From Thermoanaerobaculia bacterium (lineage in GTDB: Bacteria > Acidobacteriota > Thermoanaerobaculia > UBA5066): a stretch of 64,000 nt of DNA. Shown here piece by piece: positions 27,233 through 33,570 of the stretch. The notes under the pieces are model-generated. The model saw only the letters and a list, made by a program, of their open reading frames with translations. It was not told the DNA's origin and searched no databases. The first letter of the stretch is position 1, and every line of letters starts with the position of its first letter. A program made the position numbers and the translations under genes. The DNA lies in assembly GCA_022071945.1 (NCBI GenBank), contig JAJVIN010000005.1, forward strand, positions 1 through 64,000, read 5' to 3'.

Positions 27233-28504
27233 TCAGCGAGTGATCTTGGCGATCCTCGTCGCCATGAAGGCAGCGGACCCCCGCTGACCCGTCACCTGGA
27301 CGCGATCTCCGACAGCCGGAGAGCCGACGATTTCCGTCCGGCGGGACACCATCACCCTCACGCTGTCGACCATCCAAACCGACGATTCGATCGACTTGAC
27401 CGTCCCCTCGAACGAGACTTCCACCGTGGGGGGCCCCTGCTCGAGCTTCGTGATCGAGGTGGCGATCAAGGCTCCGGAGGCCACATTCCCCTCGACGTCG
27501 ACCCAGTCCCCGACCCTCGGGTTGCCCGTGATCCTCGTCTCGCGGGTCACCTTCACCTCTTGCTCGAGGGCCTCGAACGGCCGGACCTTCCAGAGCGTGT
27601 CGGTGATCGAAGTGACGACACCCCGGAATCGGAGAGTGACGGGAACGTCCGAGAGCTTGATGATCGTGACGGCAACCAGGTTCCCGGCCGAGTCACGCTG
27701 CGCAATGACGTTGACGCGGTCCCCGGCCCTGGGTTCGCCGGCGATTCGCGTCTGCGCCGTCACCAGGACCGTGACCTCGCGCCCCTCGGCCGTCCTGATG
27801 ACCCATGACGTCGTCCCGATCGACACGACCGAGCCGATGACGGTTTCGGTCGGCTGCGGAGCCTCCATCATCTTCATGACGCGAAGGGCATACAGGGACT
27901 GGTCCTTGGGAGTCGCCGTGACCGTGACTTCGTCCTTGACCTTGATGTCCGAGAGGCCCTTGACACCCGTCCCCTCGCGGGGTCCTCCGAAGGCGGTCTT
28001 GGCGTCCACCGAGATCTTCCAACCCAGAACGGTCAGCGAGTTGCCGGCCACGTCGACGGCCTCGACACCCCCGCGCACAGTGGCAACGGCAGAGTCCTGC
28101 ATGACGAAGACAGTCTCCGCCTTGACCATGCCCCCTGACTGCGTCGCAGGGTCTTTCAAGAGCGCCATGACGCGCTGGCCGACGCGAACCTCGGCGAGGG
28201 CCGCCCCGCCCTCGGCGGCGACGATGCGGGCCCCGTTGATGTCGAACGAGATCAGCCCGTTCAGGAGGGAGACGATCGGCCCGCCCCCGGCAAAGGGGAT
28301 GTTCACGCCCGTGATGGTCCCCTCGACCATCGACACGTTCCTCATGATGTCCGGAATTCCGGGGCTCGTCCCGGATCCACCCCCGGCGCGGCTGACCGGA
28401 GCGCCTTCCTGGACTCCACCCTGCTGCGACAGCGCCGGAAGGGCCAGAGCCGCTGCGATGGCGGCCGCGGCCACGAAGATCTCAACCCACTGTTTCCGAG
28501 TCAT
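27233..28504 (-). CDS. Exported DUF5666-repeat protein
   Basis: This is a 423-residue secreted protein. Residues 1-27 form a signal peptide (IFVAAAAIAAALALPALSQQ). The rest consists of about five to six beta-strand-rich repeats of 60-70 residues, each shaped like G.V.SI....W.V....V.V...T.I.G.P.VGDRV.V.G. This is the OB-fold-like DUF5666 pattern: for example SVVSIGTTSWVIRTAEGREV, GVVTSITDTLWKVRPFEAL and GTVKSIESSVWMVDSVRV. No enzymatic residues are evident. Function is unknown; a periplasmic binding or structural role is a guess. Two near-identical 16-bp repeats lie about 100-140 nt upstream. Confidence 0.82.
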   Translation of the reverse strand: MTRKQWVEIFVAAAAIAAALALPALSQQGGVQEGAPVSRAGGGSGTSPGIPDIMRNVSMVEGTITGVNIPFAGGGPIVSLLNGLISFDINGARIVAAEGGAALAEVRVGQRVMALLKDPATQSGGMVKAETVFVMQDSAVATVRGGVEAVDVAGNSLTVLGWKISVDAKTAFGGPREGTGVKGLSDIKVKDEVTVTATPKDQSLYALRVMKMMEAPQPTETVIGSVVSIGTTSWVIRTAEGREVTVLVTAQTRIAGEPRAGDRVNVIAQRDSAGNLVAVTIIKLSDVPVTLRFRGVVTSITDTLWKVRPFEALEQEVKVTRETRITGNPRVGDWVDVEGNVASGALIATSITKLEQGPPTVEVSFEGTVKSIESSVWMVDSVRVMVSRRTEIVGSPAVGDRVQVTGQRGSAAFMATRIAKITR

Positions 28505-28664: not shown

Positions 28665-29243
28665 CTACCACGAGATATCGAAGCTACAGGAGTCGTCGCC
28701 GAAGCAGTGGCATGCCGCCTCCTGGATCCGGATGGGTCCGGGGGCGTGCATGAGGCGCAGGGCCTCTTCGTAGTAACCCATCCCGGCCAGACAGAAGACC
28801 CTCGAGTAGGCGGTGTACCCGTCGATTCGGATGCGTCCCGACCGCTCGGACTTCCGCTCGTAGGTCGAGCGGCCAAAATTCTGGAACTGATGGTGCAGGA
28901 CCGTCATCCGTTCGAAGAACCGGTGGGGCTCGACCGAGACGAACGCCTTGTAGACGCCGCCGAGGTTGAGGGCGGCCGAATAGCGGCCGAGGTCCCGGTA
29001 GACATCTTCCTCGGGGCGCCCTGAAGCCGTGGCAATGGCCCGGTCGATCTCCACGACGAGACCGAAAGTCACCCAGTCCGTTGCCAGGACGGTCTGGCCC
29101 AGTAGGTGGGCTGCCGCCGGAGAAAGGTGCTCAACCAGGGAGTTCGTCGATAGCCCGGCATGGTTCGAGGCCCAGTTCAGATGCGCCCGCAGCATCGTTC
29201 CCTTGACCTTGGCCGTATCCTCGAAACGCTCTGTGACCGTCAT
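28665..29243 (-). CDS. V4R-like / DUF2378-type small-molecule-binding protein
   Basis: The protein has 192 residues from the ATG at 29243, preceded by GGGGAACGA; a GTG at 29261 would add six. It is a soluble alpha/beta protein. The C-terminus has ACHCFGDDSCSFDISW, which resembles the Cys-x-Gly-Asp-x-x-Cys-x-Phe ending of V4R (4-vinyl reductase) domains. Such domains sit on the heme-NO-binding-like fold and bind small hydrophobic ligands or metals. The middle part (LGRYSAALNLGGVYKAF, FFERMTVLHHQFQNFG) recalls the DUF2378 proteins of myxobacteria. It is the last gene after murG-mraY-MFS on this strand. Assignment is by pattern only. Confidence 0.55.
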   Translation of the reverse strand: MTVTERFEDTAKVKGTMLRAHLNWASNHAGLSTNSLVEHLSPAAAHLLGQTVLATDWVTFGLVVEIDRAIATASGRPEEDVYRDLGRYSAALNLGGVYKAFVSVEPHRFFERMTVLHHQFQNFGRSTYERKSERSGRIRIDGYTAYSRVFCLAGMGYYEEALRLMHAPGPIRIQEAACHCFGDDSCSFDISW

Positions 29244-29264
29244 TCGTTCCCCGTACCTCACAGT

Positions 29265-30437
29265 TTATTCCGGCCCGCCGCCGCCGGAGGCCCCGGCCGC
29301 GGGGAGAAGGGGTGACGTGAGAAGAAAGATGGGGACGGCCAGAACGGCCAGACCCGCGCCGCAGAGAAACGCCGCCCGAAAACCGTGATGCTCGACGAGG
29401 AACCCCGTCACGAGCGATCCGAGCGCGATTCCCGAGTCGAAGGCCCACAGGAGCGAACCGAAGGTTGCCGCCCGGCGCTCGGGTGGTGTGCGCCCCAGAA
29501 GGAAGGCGGCAAATCCCGGATACGCCCCCCCGAATCCGGCCCCCATGACGAGGGCGCCCAGAACCAGAAGGAATTGCGTCTTTGCAAGCGCGAGACAGAG
29601 GAGGGCGGGCGGGATCAGCAAGAGGCACGGCAAGAGCAGCGCTCTCGGTCCGATCCTGTCCCCCGTCCGCGCCAGCAGAAGCCGGAAGACCAGGACGGCG
29701 CTCGCGAACACCGTGAAGAAGAGCGTCGAGGGCACGATCTTCCGCTCGATCGACATCAGGGCCACGTAGCTCATGATCCCGCCATACCCAAAGGAGACGG
29801 GAAGGAAGGCGAGGGACACCGCCATCACCCTCCACGGGAGAACCTGCCCGAGCCCGGAGACCCGAGGTGCCCTGGCGCCGGGATCCCGTTCGAGCCGAGA
29901 GGCCAGGAGGGCCATGGATGCGGACAGCGCCGCCATCCCGAGACAGACCTCGAACCAGCCGGCACGGTGAAAGATCCATAGGCCCACGGCTGGCGCGACA
30001 GAGGCCGCGATCGTGGACGCCATTCCCCAGTACGCGATGCCCTCCGTCCGGCGACTGGCCGGGATGACGTCCGAGATCAGGGCGCCGCTGGAAGCGAGAA
30101 GGCCGGACCAGAAGACGCCATGCACGGCGGCCACCGCGAGCAGGAGAGGCAACTGCCGGACGACCCCGTACAGCAAGGAGAACACGATGAAAAACACGGA
30201 ACCCGCGACGAGCACCCGGCGGCGGCCCAGGGCATCGGCAAGGGAACCCGTCACCGGCGCCGAGAAGGCGCAGGCCATCGTGTAGAAAGAGAGGAAGAGG
30301 CCCGCCTCGGCCTTCGACCGGCCGAGCTCGAGGATCCGAAACGGAATGACGGGGAAGAGCTGGAAGGCGGAGAAGAAGGTGATGAATCCGAAGACCCACA
30401 GCCTTCCGAACTGGCCGGTGAAGAGCCGCGCCCCCAT
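29265..30437 (-). CDS. Major facilitator superfamily permease
   Basis: This 390-residue protein has about twelve hydrophobic segments. The inter-helix motif A is visible as GSLADALGRRRVLVAG, and a weaker second copy as RTGDRIGPRALLL. The N-terminus (RLWVFGFITFFSAFQLFPVIPFRIL) begins in the first membrane helix, which fixes the start at 30437 even though the frame is open upstream through mraY. The gene starts 2 nt after the mraY stop and 21 nt before the V4R-like gene, so it belongs to the murG-mraY transcription unit. The substrate is unknown. Confidence 0.9.
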   Translation of the reverse strand: MGARLFTGQFGRLWVFGFITFFSAFQLFPVIPFRILELGRSKAEAGLFLSFYTMACAFSAPVTGSLADALGRRRVLVAGSVFFIVFSLLYGVVRQLPLLLAVAAVHGVFWSGLLASSGALISDVIPASRRTEGIAYWGMASTIAASVAPAVGLWIFHRAGWFEVCLGMAALSASMALLASRLERDPGARAPRVSGLGQVLPWRVMAVSLAFLPVSFGYGGIMSYVALMSIERKIVPSTLFFTVFASAVLVFRLLLARTGDRIGPRALLLPCLLLIPPALLCLALAKTQFLLVLGALVMGAGFGGAYPGFAAFLLGRTPPERRAATFGSLLWAFDSGIALGSLVTGFLVEHHGFRAAFLCGAGLAVLAVPIFLLTSPLLPAAGASGGGGPE

Positions 30438-30439
30438 CC

Positions 30440-31546
30440 TCAGCGCAGCTTCAAGGTCGCGAGCGCCCCGAGGGCCAGAAGCCCGGAAATGATCCAGAGC
30501 CGCACCACGACCTTCGTCTCGGCCAGCCCCAGATGCTGCATCCGGTGATGGAGGGGAGCGCGGTGGAAGATTCGCCGGCCCAGCCACTTCACCCCGATCT
30601 TGTCCTGGATTTGCGAGGAGAGGGCTTCCGCCACGAAGAGCCCCCCCAGGATGAGGAACAGCGCCTCCTGCTTCAGGAGCACGCACCCGACGGCCATGCT
30701 TCCGCCAATCGCCAGGGCCCCCGTATCCCCCATGAAGATCTGGGCCGGGTAGGCGTTGAACCAGAGGAATCCGATCCCCGCGCCCGCGAAGGCCGAGCAG
30801 AACACCGCGAGCTCGCCGGCTCCCGAGAGGAACGGGTAGAAGAGGTAGCGTGCCCAGATCGCGTTCCCCAAAAGGTACGCGAACACCCCCAGGACGAGAA
30901 GAACGAAGACCGAGGGGACGATCGCGAGACCATCCATCCCATCGGTGATGTTCACGGAGTTGCTGACGAGGAGCACGAACAGGAGAACGAACGGGATGAA
31001 GAGCCAGGGGCTGTCGACGAGGGCGGTCTTCACGAACGGGACGTAGATCCGAAACCTCTCCGCGAGCGGGAGAGGGGAAAGGGGGCTCGCGAGGATTCCC
31101 ACGAAGAGGACCGCGAAGGCGGTCTGGAGGAAGAGCTTTCCCGCCTCGCTGAGTCCCTTGTCTCCCGACCGGGCGCGCATCTTGGCGCGATCGTCGAGAA
31201 AGCCGATCCAGGCGAACCAGAGCATTCCCGCGAGCATCAGCAGGAGATAGAGGCTCGACAGGTTGCACCAGATGAGGCACGACGCCAGGACGGCCGGGAT
31301 GACGACCGCGCCGCCCATGATGGGGGTTCCCGCCTTGTCGAGGGCCGACGCGATGCCGGTTTGCCGGAGCTGATCGACGAACTGGCGGCGCTGCAGGTAC
31401 CAGATGACGCGCGGCGTGACCCACAGCACGAGGAGCGTGGCCGTGAGGGCCGCCGCGATCGAGCGGGCCGAGAGGTACTCCACGAGCCTCAGGAACGAGA
31501 GCGCCGGGATGTCGGGATGGAGGAGCTTCCCGAGAGCGTAGATCAT
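30440..31546 (-). CDS. mraY: Phospho-N-acetylmuramoyl-pentapeptide transferase, divergent HHH motif
   Basis: MraY transfers phospho-MurNAc-pentapeptide to undecaprenyl phosphate, making lipid I on the cytoplasmic membrane face. The 368-residue protein has about ten membrane helices. It has DKAGTPIMGGAVV, the Asp pair in IGFLDDRAKMRAR, NSVNITDGMDGLAI and the catalytic-Asp segment IFMGDTGALAIGG. It ends ALATLKLR much as E. coli MraY does. The usual P-HHH-(F/Y)-E motif reads PLHHRMQHLG, so the third His is Arg. Its ATG overlaps the murG stop by 4 nt. This order (murG before mraY, with no murD or ftsW) differs from the usual dcw cluster. Confidence 0.93.
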   Translation of the reverse strand: MIYALGKLLHPDIPALSFLRLVEYLSARSIAAALTATLLVLWVTPRVIWYLQRRQFVDQLRQTGIASALDKAGTPIMGGAVVIPAVLASCLIWCNLSSLYLLLMLAGMLWFAWIGFLDDRAKMRARSGDKGLSEAGKLFLQTAFAVLFVGILASPLSPLPLAERFRIYVPFVKTALVDSPWLFIPFVLLFVLLVSNSVNITDGMDGLAIVPSVFVLLVLGVFAYLLGNAIWARYLFYPFLSGAGELAVFCSAFAGAGIGFLWFNAYPAQIFMGDTGALAIGGSMAVGCVLLKQEALFLILGGLFVAEALSSQIQDKIGVKWLGRRIFHRAPLHHRMQHLGLAETKVVVRLWIISGLLALGALATLKLR

Positions 31547-33570
31547 CGCGCGTCTCCCTGCCGTCTCGCGACCGACTCGAGGAGCTTCTTGTAATTCGCC
31601 TTGAGCTCGAACTGGGGAACGAAGTCGGTCGAGATCAAGGGAAAGGCCGCAAGACTCGTCTCCAGGCGGGAGAGGTCGGTCACCTTGCCTCTCTCGACCA
31701 ATGTGATGATGCCCTTCAGCGCCGCCGAGCGGACCTTCCAGTACTCCCGTTCGCGCATGGCCAGGAGCACGGGGAGCGCGTCCTCTTCACCGCCGATCTG
31801 GCCGAGGGCCTCGGCACAGGCACCCGCCGCCTCGATGTCGCGGTCCTCCACACCTTTCGAGAGGGCCGCGATGAACTCGGCCTTCCTCGTCAGGCGGGGT
31901 CCGAACCGGGCCACGACTCGCGCCGCCTCACACCGCACCTCGTAGTAAGGATCGCGGAACGCCGTCAGGAGCGTCTCTTCGACCGCCGGGTCGACCACGC
32001 CCAGACGCCCCAGGGCGGTGAGGGCGTTCCTCCTGATGAACCCGACCTCCGCAAAGTCGCCACCGAAGAGGCGCTCGAGAAGCGGGGCGGGGGTGCGATT
32101 CGACAGGAGAGCGACGATCAGCGGGACCTTGTCCGTCGCGCCGAGAAGTCCCAGGAGCTTCACGCCCAAATTGCGGTCCTCCCAGCCGGGACTCACCAGC
32201 AAGGATGCGGCACGGCTCCTGTAATACTGCAGCTCGGCCGCGTCCGGGATGACGGAATGGGGCTTGTAGTGCTTTCCCGATTTTCTGACGGCGGCTTCAA
32301 GCCGGGACAGGAGAGCGGTATTCGACGGGAGCGTCATCTCGAGCGGTTCCTCCGCGACGGGGTGAGGAACCGGCTCGGGACCTTCGCCGCGAATGGCACG
32401 CGAGATGACACCGAGCGCGTCGGGCCGGTGGAACCGGGCGGCGGCCCGGGCCATCCGGGAGAGGCGGTCCCCATCGAACGCGAGATCGACGAGCCGGCCC
32501 GCCAGAAGACTCCCATCGATGCGCTCGATGACGTGCCCGTCCTCGACCACCGTCTCCTCATAGAGGACCTCGGCTCCCTCCGCCCGCTGCATCGCCCGCG
32601 CATTGGCCACCTGGTGATCTCCCGGGAGATTCGCCTTCGGGATGACGAGCGCGGGCAGCCCCGCGCGGGCCAGCTCGTTGAGGGTCCCGGCCCCCGCCCG
32701 GACGACGCAGAGATCCGCGAGGGCATAGAGGCACTCGATGTTGTGAAAGTAGGGCCGGGCCACATAGAAGGAATTGATGAGCTCCCGTTCCTCCTCTGTG
32801 TAGAGCTGTTGGAGGCGGCCTTGCGTGTCCGCCGAGGCGTCGTAACGGCCAGCGGTGGAGAGACCGGTGCCGTGCACGACGAAGAGGCGATCCCGGTGCG
32901 GAATGAGATCTCTCAAGGCGTCGACGAGACCCCGGTTGAGCGTTCGGGCGCCCTGGGAACCGCCGAAGGCGAAGACCACGGTGCGCCCCTCGGGAATCCT
33001 GAAATCGAGCCGCGCCCGGGCGGTCTCCCGGTCGATGCTCCCGATCCGCTCGCGGAGGGGGTAGCCGGAGAGGAGACCGTTTCCAGGAAAGTACTCGAGC
33101 GTCTCGGGAAACGTGACAAAAACACGCTCGGCCAACCGGCCCGCCACCTGGTTCAGCTTACCGGGGACGGCGTTTTGCTCCTGCAAGAAGACCGGGGCCC
33201 GGCACAGGCGCAGCCGTTTCAGGATCTCGGCGGCGAAGACCACCGGCGCGGCCACGAACCCGCCCGTTCCGACGATCGCCGTCGGCCGGAAGCGCATCAG
33301 GATGACGGCCGCCTGCAGAATCCCGATTCCCAGGTCGACGACGAACTTCAGGAGGGCCGCGGACGGCCGCAGACCTGGAAAGCCCGACGCCCGGACGAAC
33401 TTCAACGGAAGCCCCTCGCGAACGACGACGTGTTCCTCGGCGCGGCCCTTGACGCCCACGTAGAGCACGGCCGCGCCCGGCTTGGCGAGGGCGGCCCCGA
33501 TGGCGAGCGCCGGATTCACGTGACCGGCCGTTCCACCGCCTGTGAGGAGGATCCTGTCGAGCAGAGACAC
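31543..33570 (-). CDS. murG: MurG glycosyltransferase fused to a HEAT-repeat domain
   Basis: MurG adds GlcNAc to lipid I to form lipid II. Residues 1 to about 385 of this 675-residue protein are a GT-B MurG: LLTGGGTAGHVNPALAI, IVGTGGFVAAPVVFAA, FLQEQNAVPGKLNQ, FAFGGSQGARTLN, VVRAGAGTLNELARAGLPAL and DHQVANARAM. Residues about 420-675 are extra. They form five or so paired helices of HEAT type, such as GFIRRNALTALGRLGVVDP, YEVRCEAARVVARFGP and YWKVRSAALKGIITLVERG. Normal MurG is about 360 residues. There is no stop or frame change between the parts. The start is GTG at 33570. The gene leads an operon with mraY, an MFS permease and a V4R-like gene. Confidence 0.93.
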   Translation of the reverse strand: MSLLDRILLTGGGTAGHVNPALAIGAALAKPGAAVLYVGVKGRAEEHVVVREGLPLKFVRASGFPGLRPSAALLKFVVDLGIGILQAAVILMRFRPTAIVGTGGFVAAPVVFAAEILKRLRLCRAPVFLQEQNAVPGKLNQVAGRLAERVFVTFPETLEYFPGNGLLSGYPLRERIGSIDRETARARLDFRIPEGRTVVFAFGGSQGARTLNRGLVDALRDLIPHRDRLFVVHGTGLSTAGRYDASADTQGRLQQLYTEEERELINSFYVARPYFHNIECLYALADLCVVRAGAGTLNELARAGLPALVIPKANLPGDHQVANARAMQRAEGAEVLYEETVVEDGHVIERIDGSLLAGRLVDLAFDGDRLSRMARAAARFHRPDALGVISRAIRGEGPEPVPHPVAEEPLEMTLPSNTALLSRLEAAVRKSGKHYKPHSVIPDAAELQYYRSRAASLLVSPGWEDRNLGVKLLGLLGATDKVPLIVALLSNRTPAPLLERLFGGDFAEVGFIRRNALTALGRLGVVDPAVEETLLTAFRDPYYEVRCEAARVVARFGPRLTRKAEFIAALSKGVEDRDIEAAGACAEALGQIGGEEDALPVLLAMREREYWKVRSAALKGIITLVERGKVTDLSRLETSLAAFPLISTDFVPQFELKANYKKLLESVARRQGDAR

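Follow-up and report, generated by a model that had tools for sequence, protein, structure and literature searches.

The window, i.e. the whole stretch of 64,000 nucleotides analyzed here, carries on its reverse strand a single uninterrupted reading frame of 675 codons (positions 31543..33570, (-)), which starts with GTG, contains no internal stop and is preceded, about 10 nt 5' of the GTG, by an AGGA Shine-Dalgarno-like motif (read from the sequence). It encodes the only MurG of the genome, a protein of 675 aa composed of a MurG GT-B domain (residues 5-396; 32383..33558, (-)), a flexible linker (residues 397-416; 32323..32382, (-)) and a HEAT solenoid (residues 417-672; 31555..32322, (-)). 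The Pfam search identified, all above the cut-off, Glyco_transf_28 (PF03033, residues 7-151, E 1.3e-28), Glyco_tran_28_C (PF04101, residues 198-351, E 3.7e-20), HEAT_2 (residues 532-619, E 3.7e-15) and HEAT (E 2.4e-7). The full-length AlphaFold2 model based on 39 natural homologues (pLDDT 89.5, pTM 0.83) superposes with its residues 5-396 on the MurG structure from P. aeruginosa (3s2u; Z 37.2, rmsd 2.4, 325 aligned) and exhibits a low-confidence linker (pLDDT <50 at residues 401-411), followed by the helical region 417-672. Because the MurG part filled the full-length fold search, which covered residues 2-399 only, a separate model of the HEAT part was built and compared with known structures. 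The resulting model (pLDDT 95.0, pTM 0.90) is a right-handed stack of antiparallel helix pairs with about 15 helices, and its best structural matches are the HEAT-like alphaRep proteins (Z 20.1, rmsd 2.6 over 192), with further matches to other HEAT/ARM solenoids. Thus, the proposal of the first-pass annotation that this MurG possesses a C-terminal HEAT extension is confirmed by the reading frame, Pfam, the model and the fold matches, and the extension is indeed predicted to be a solenoid. Its count of "five or so" helix pairs has to be corrected to six or seven, while the statement that the two parts follow each other with no interruption holds for the reading frame and is not quite right for the structure, in which a short disordered linker splits MurG from HEAT. 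A frameshift or misassembly joining two genes is ruled out, since about 50 independent assemblies carry the same fusion as an open frame.

The next gene, mraY (30440..31546, (-); 368 aa, ATG start), overlaps with its ATG the stop of murG-HEAT by 4 nt. It is the only PF00953 gene of the genome, and its product qualifies as an MraY equivalog (303 bits on TIGR00445 against the cut-off of 192) and matches the MraY structure 8g01 in the PDB with E 3.2e-75. It is followed after 2 nt by a gene of an MFS transporter (29265..30437, (-); Pfam MFS_1), which takes the slot that in the sister genera of the window's family belongs to murJ. No homologue of this transporter gene was found at the other loci examined that carry the cassette of murG-HEAT and mraY, and its membership in the cassette is doubtful. 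Further downstream lie a gene for a DUF2378 protein (28665-29261, (-)), which begins 3 nt after the MFS stop, and a gene for a protein with four DUF5666 matches (27233-28504, (-)).

The fused protein as the MurG of the cell

Is the fused protein the MurG of the cell? Both the N-terminal and the C-terminal GT28 domains are present in a GT-B fold (PF03033, PF04101 and the match to 3s2u), and the comparison with the solved structures 3s2u and 1f0k reveals the active-site motifs of MurG, i.e. the GGT.GH, HEQN-type and GGS.GA loops, the donor-site E and Q..N. The residues aligned with the active site (H17, E131, Q132, N133, R173, S205, E299, Q320 and N323) are invariant in 39 fusions. The histidine of the HEQN loop is replaced by Gln at residue 130 of the window fusion (33181-33183, (-)) and by Asn in the fusions of family f8; the E, Q and N of the loop are invariant. 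On the NCBI model TIGR01133 the window protein scores 212-214 bits and all fused members tested score 152-247 bits, below the curated murG equivalog cut-off of 250.25 bits, which is an annotation threshold; no better family competes for the fused MurG. Consequently, an annotation pipeline may not name these proteins equivalog MurG.

Such scores could speak for a GT28 enzyme engaged in the synthesis of another lipid-linked glycan rather than for the MurG of the cell, an explanation that we regard as highly improbable in view of the invariant residues listed above, the pairing of the protein with the genome's only MraY and the outcome of the search for other MurGs. The first-pass annotation had suggested looking for a second, normal murG; neither close homologues nor the NCBI murG model revealed one in the window genome, which does possess the other Mur genes. 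Two other GT28-like matches in this genome (L002 and L003) were rejected as candidates, as they look like MGDG/UGT-type enzymes and show no match to P0001. The single-copy pattern is repeated in 35 genomes with the fusion, in which the NCBI murG model detected no second MurG: the few extra matches score 50-62 bits and are, by their look, other GT28-type enzymes, and the one in G128 is a second piece of the same gene. As judged from the sequences, the fusion is predicted to be the only lipid II synthase of the genome and may be filed as MurG, although it scores below one annotation threshold.

Distribution of the fusion and its pairing with mraY and murJ

The MurG-HEAT fusion was identified in about 50 genomes assigned to 14 family codes of the phylum, as well as in one contig labeled as Myxococcota. 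Its distribution is patchy: it is present also in other members of the window's family (G003, G004, G011 and, on split contigs, G009) and of the window's class (G032, G045, G074), in 10 of the 38 genomes from the class of G179, all of one genus, and in 9 of the 93 genomes from the class of G214. The scan of a collection of genomes of named species, which detects close relatives only, yielded 36 loci, with the fusion solely in L035 (Myxococcota according to the NCBI taxonomy). Among the plasmid records there is none that covers 80% of the protein, and in the matches listed only the MurG part is covered.

The mraY gene lies directly downstream of murG-HEAT, on the same strand, in all 44 loci in which the contig continues far enough for a test. 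The distance between the two genes ranges from -8 to +58 nt, and they overlap in 35 of these loci. This invariable arrangement lends indirect support to the tethering of MurG to MraY envisaged in the first-pass annotation; the support does not extend to the cytoskeletal or division proteins that it also named as possible partners. The relocation of the pair out of the dcw cluster, its behavior as a cassette and the frequent inclusion of MurJ had escaped that annotation.

In relatives of the window genome the fusion includes also the flippase MurJ, in two domain orders and four family codes (L139:6419-9928, L142, L143, L144 and L161; L145, L146, L147, L165 and L168). The order MurJ-MurG-HEAT (1158-1170 codons) is found in families f29 (genus g66) and f61, where 5 loci were read, and the order MurG-MurJ-HEAT (1073-1267 codons) in families f40 and f20, where 5 complete loci were read and 2 more are cut by contig ends. 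The MurJ parts are matched by Pfam PF03023 (E down to 1e-80) and, in the three tested, score above the cut-off of TIGR01695 from NCBIfam. The HEAT parts of the three architectures are homologous to each other, and HEAT stays C-terminal even with a whole MurJ between it and MurG. In f40, MurG and MurJ are separated by about 120 residues (L145:6406-6768, (-), and L165:4557-4919) that look like a small beta-rich domain; examined by eye this segment suggested an FHA domain, an assignment that was dropped, as Pfam returned neither an FHA match nor any other significant match.

Elsewhere murJ is a separate neighbor, situated directly after mraY in the window's family (G003, G009, G011, G013) and in f41 (G179, G212, G263, G277, G331, G345, G373), or directly upstream (G214, G291, G425). 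Altogether, MurJ is fused or adjacent in 24 of the loci read, 10 times as a fusion and 14 times as a neighboring gene. In several other families murJ is not adjacent, and the MurJ of the window genome (L207), which belongs to the native type of the family, is encoded on a different contig; therefore MurJ is not an obligatory partner.

Origin of the cassette

In the window genome the dcw cluster is located on another contig, in the order PBP-murE-murF-murD-ftsW-murC-ftsQ, and contains neither mraY nor murG. The same two genes are missing from dcw in all five fused genomes checked (the window's, G179, G214, G392 and G113). In nine unfused relatives (G001, G002, G005, G007, G010, G014, G015, G018 and G029) murG and mraY occupy their usual places in dcw, where they are separated from each other by murD and ftsW.

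The evolutionary history of the three proteins was inspected using trees of MurG, MraY and MurJ obtained by quick searches, with SH-aLRT support only. The fused MurGs form one clade (49 rows, SH-aLRT 100), and so do the MraYs of the fused loci (SH-aLRT 100); the sole row in the latter clade that is labeled as unfused, L200, is the MraY of the fused genome G152, situated beside a HEAT end. In the MurC tree, on the other hand, the window's family is one group (support 100/99), in which fused and unfused members are mixed, and a MurG tree constrained to keep this family in one group is rejected (delta lnL 197, p-AU 1.7e-46). The identities agree with this picture: MurC of the window genome is 72-77% identical to that of unfused family members and 54-55% identical to that of the fused family f41, while for MurG the order is reversed, with 34-41% and 52-62%, respectively. 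Likewise, the MurJs encoded in the cassettes of the window's family cluster with their f41 counterparts, and not with the native MurJs of the family. One clade of MurG-HEAT and one of MraY, both incongruent with MurC, indicate that the cassette replaced the native genes, and this displacement by murG-HEAT and mraY (with murJ where it belongs to the cassette) probably occurred by horizontal transfer, as far as can be judged from sequence comparisons.

The two types of MurG and MraY could also be old ancestral paralogues that were differentially lost rather than exchanged horizontally. Their coexistence is possible, as G032 has both a native-type and a cassette mraY. However, ancient paralogy does not easily account for a MurG that is so much closer between the window's family and f41 than is suggested by their MurCs, nor for the grouping of the cassette MurJs from these two families, and among the genomes searched there is none with two complete sets. 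We therefore consider old paralogy with loss unlikely, and less likely than the spread of the cassette, which is the simplest reading.

Two genomes deserve a separate comment. The cassette-bearing G032 has kept its native-type mraY on a dcw-like contig (L199:6575-7642 and L227), and on its dcw-like contigs no murG was found between ftsW and murC; this genome is a possible intermediate of gene displacement. G003 has two murC genes (C50:7336-8706 and C53:3080-4450), whose products are both 73% identical to MurC of the window genome and which represent either a duplicate assembly or a real second copy.

Possible role of the HEAT solenoid and comparison with known systems

Lipid I is produced in the membrane by MraY and converted to lipid II by MurG, which acts from the cytoplasmic face; lipid II is then flipped by MurJ. 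HEAT solenoids are general protein binders, and the HEAT-like alphaRep proteins found among the PDB matches are binders as well. The HEAT solenoid could be a scaffold that would hold MurG, a peripheral enzyme, against MraY, an integral membrane enzyme, and, where MurJ is part of the cassette, also against MurJ; diffusion would then play little part when MurG receives lipid I from MraY and when the flippase receives lipid II from MurG. We favor, as somewhat probable, this role of HEAT in keeping MurG at MraY (and at MurJ where present) for local hand-over, with a physical contact that we infer. The adjacency or fusion of MurJ in the relatives suggests a physically linked lipid II assembly line, and the C-terminal position of HEAT, which is maintained in spite of an inserted MurJ, points to a function in the assembly and not for the GT-B domain alone.

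Gene adjacency can reflect also co-transfer or co-regulation, and linked essential genes can spread jointly without any binding between their products. HEAT may accordingly serve MurG itself, e.g. in oligomerization, stability or regulation, with the linkage to mraY being only an effect of the operon or of the transfer. Nine HEAT positions are invariant in 44 homologues spanning the three architectures, and since they fall mostly in motifs resembling the HEAT consensus, they point to the fold rather than to an interface, which agrees with such a mainly structural part. A module devoted to GT-B would, however, be oddly placed beyond an inserted MurJ, and the pairing with mraY is without exception in the 44 loci; service to MurG alone thus appears improbable. 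Could the solenoid instead dock soluble partners, such as Mur ligases, MreB or other elongasome and division proteins, and not MraY or MurJ? As a general protein binder it might do so, and MurG in other bacteria has been reported to bind MreB, MurD, MurE and MurF (PMC6420597, PMC4929429). Yet the Mur ligase and division genes remain in dcw while mraY moves with murG-HEAT every time, and neither fusions with a Mur ligase or division gene nor such genes as neighbors were found, in contrast to MurJ; we consider the docking of soluble partners rather unlikely. If the scaffold reading is combined with the history of the genes, one may tentatively envisage a horizontally spreading lipid II "factory", in which HEAT-scaffolded MurG and its co-encoded MraY (and MurJ where present) would form a standing complex that synthesizes and flips lipid II by channelling and which would have displaced the dispersed, dcw-encoded enzymes in several lineages. 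This wider proposal is plausible, but we hold it with some reserve.

These arrangements bear on the question whether MraY, MurG and MurJ work as one physical machine, at steps that are targeted by antibiotics. The natural fusions of MurG and MurJ, which share a scaffold, and the MurG-HEAT whose gene overlaps mraY can be taken as they are into experiments on structure and channelling. By taking the place of two essential dcw genes, the linked cassette also provides a clear example of the joint movement of core cell-wall genes as one functional unit. To the first-pass annotation the fusion was not known as a described form of MurG, in agreement with our search of the open-access PMC literature (subscription papers lay outside it), in which no description was found of MurG-HEAT, of MurG-MurJ fusions or of the fixed pairing with a relocated mraY; the paper on MurG2 (PMC8092295) does not mention HEAT.

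Compared with the typical MurG (GT28; 1f0k, 1nlm, 3s2u and 7d1i in the PDB), the window protein has the same whole GT-B domain, active-site-aligned residues and single copy, but it differs by the 255-residue HEAT solenoid, the score below the NCBI equivalog cut-off and the location of its gene outside dcw, in overlap with mraY. Known fusions in the Mur pathway include MurE-MurF, MurB-MurC, MurG-MurC, FtsW-MurG, MraY-MurG and MurC-Ddl (PMC6420597, PMC4929429); they too combine peptidoglycan-pathway proteins in one chain and are read as possible channelling or complex formation, but the list contains no fusion with a HEAT scaffold and none of MurG to MurJ. An interaction of MurG with MraY has been reported for E. 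coli, and a role of MurG as a scaffold has been proposed (PMC6420597, PMC4929429). The idea that MurG organizes a membrane assembly is shared with Bordetella pertussis, where MurG is regarded as an oligomeric scaffold of the cytoplasmic Mur enzymes (PMC6420597); there, the GT-B enzyme itself oligomerizes, whereas murG-HEAT encodes a dedicated solenoid and its linked genes encode membrane enzymes. A further parallel concerns the same three consecutive steps: native MS of the E. coli proteins indicated that lipids I and II follow affinity gradients on their way from MraY through MurG to MurJ (PMC9046198). The genes of this MraY-MurG-MurJ module are linked or fused, mraY at all 44 loci testable and MurJ at the 24 loci mentioned above, with MurJ of the window genome outside the cassette. 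While the passage is explained there by lipid affinities, the coupled and partly fused genes of the cassette suggest, at the level of the genes, a standing complex.
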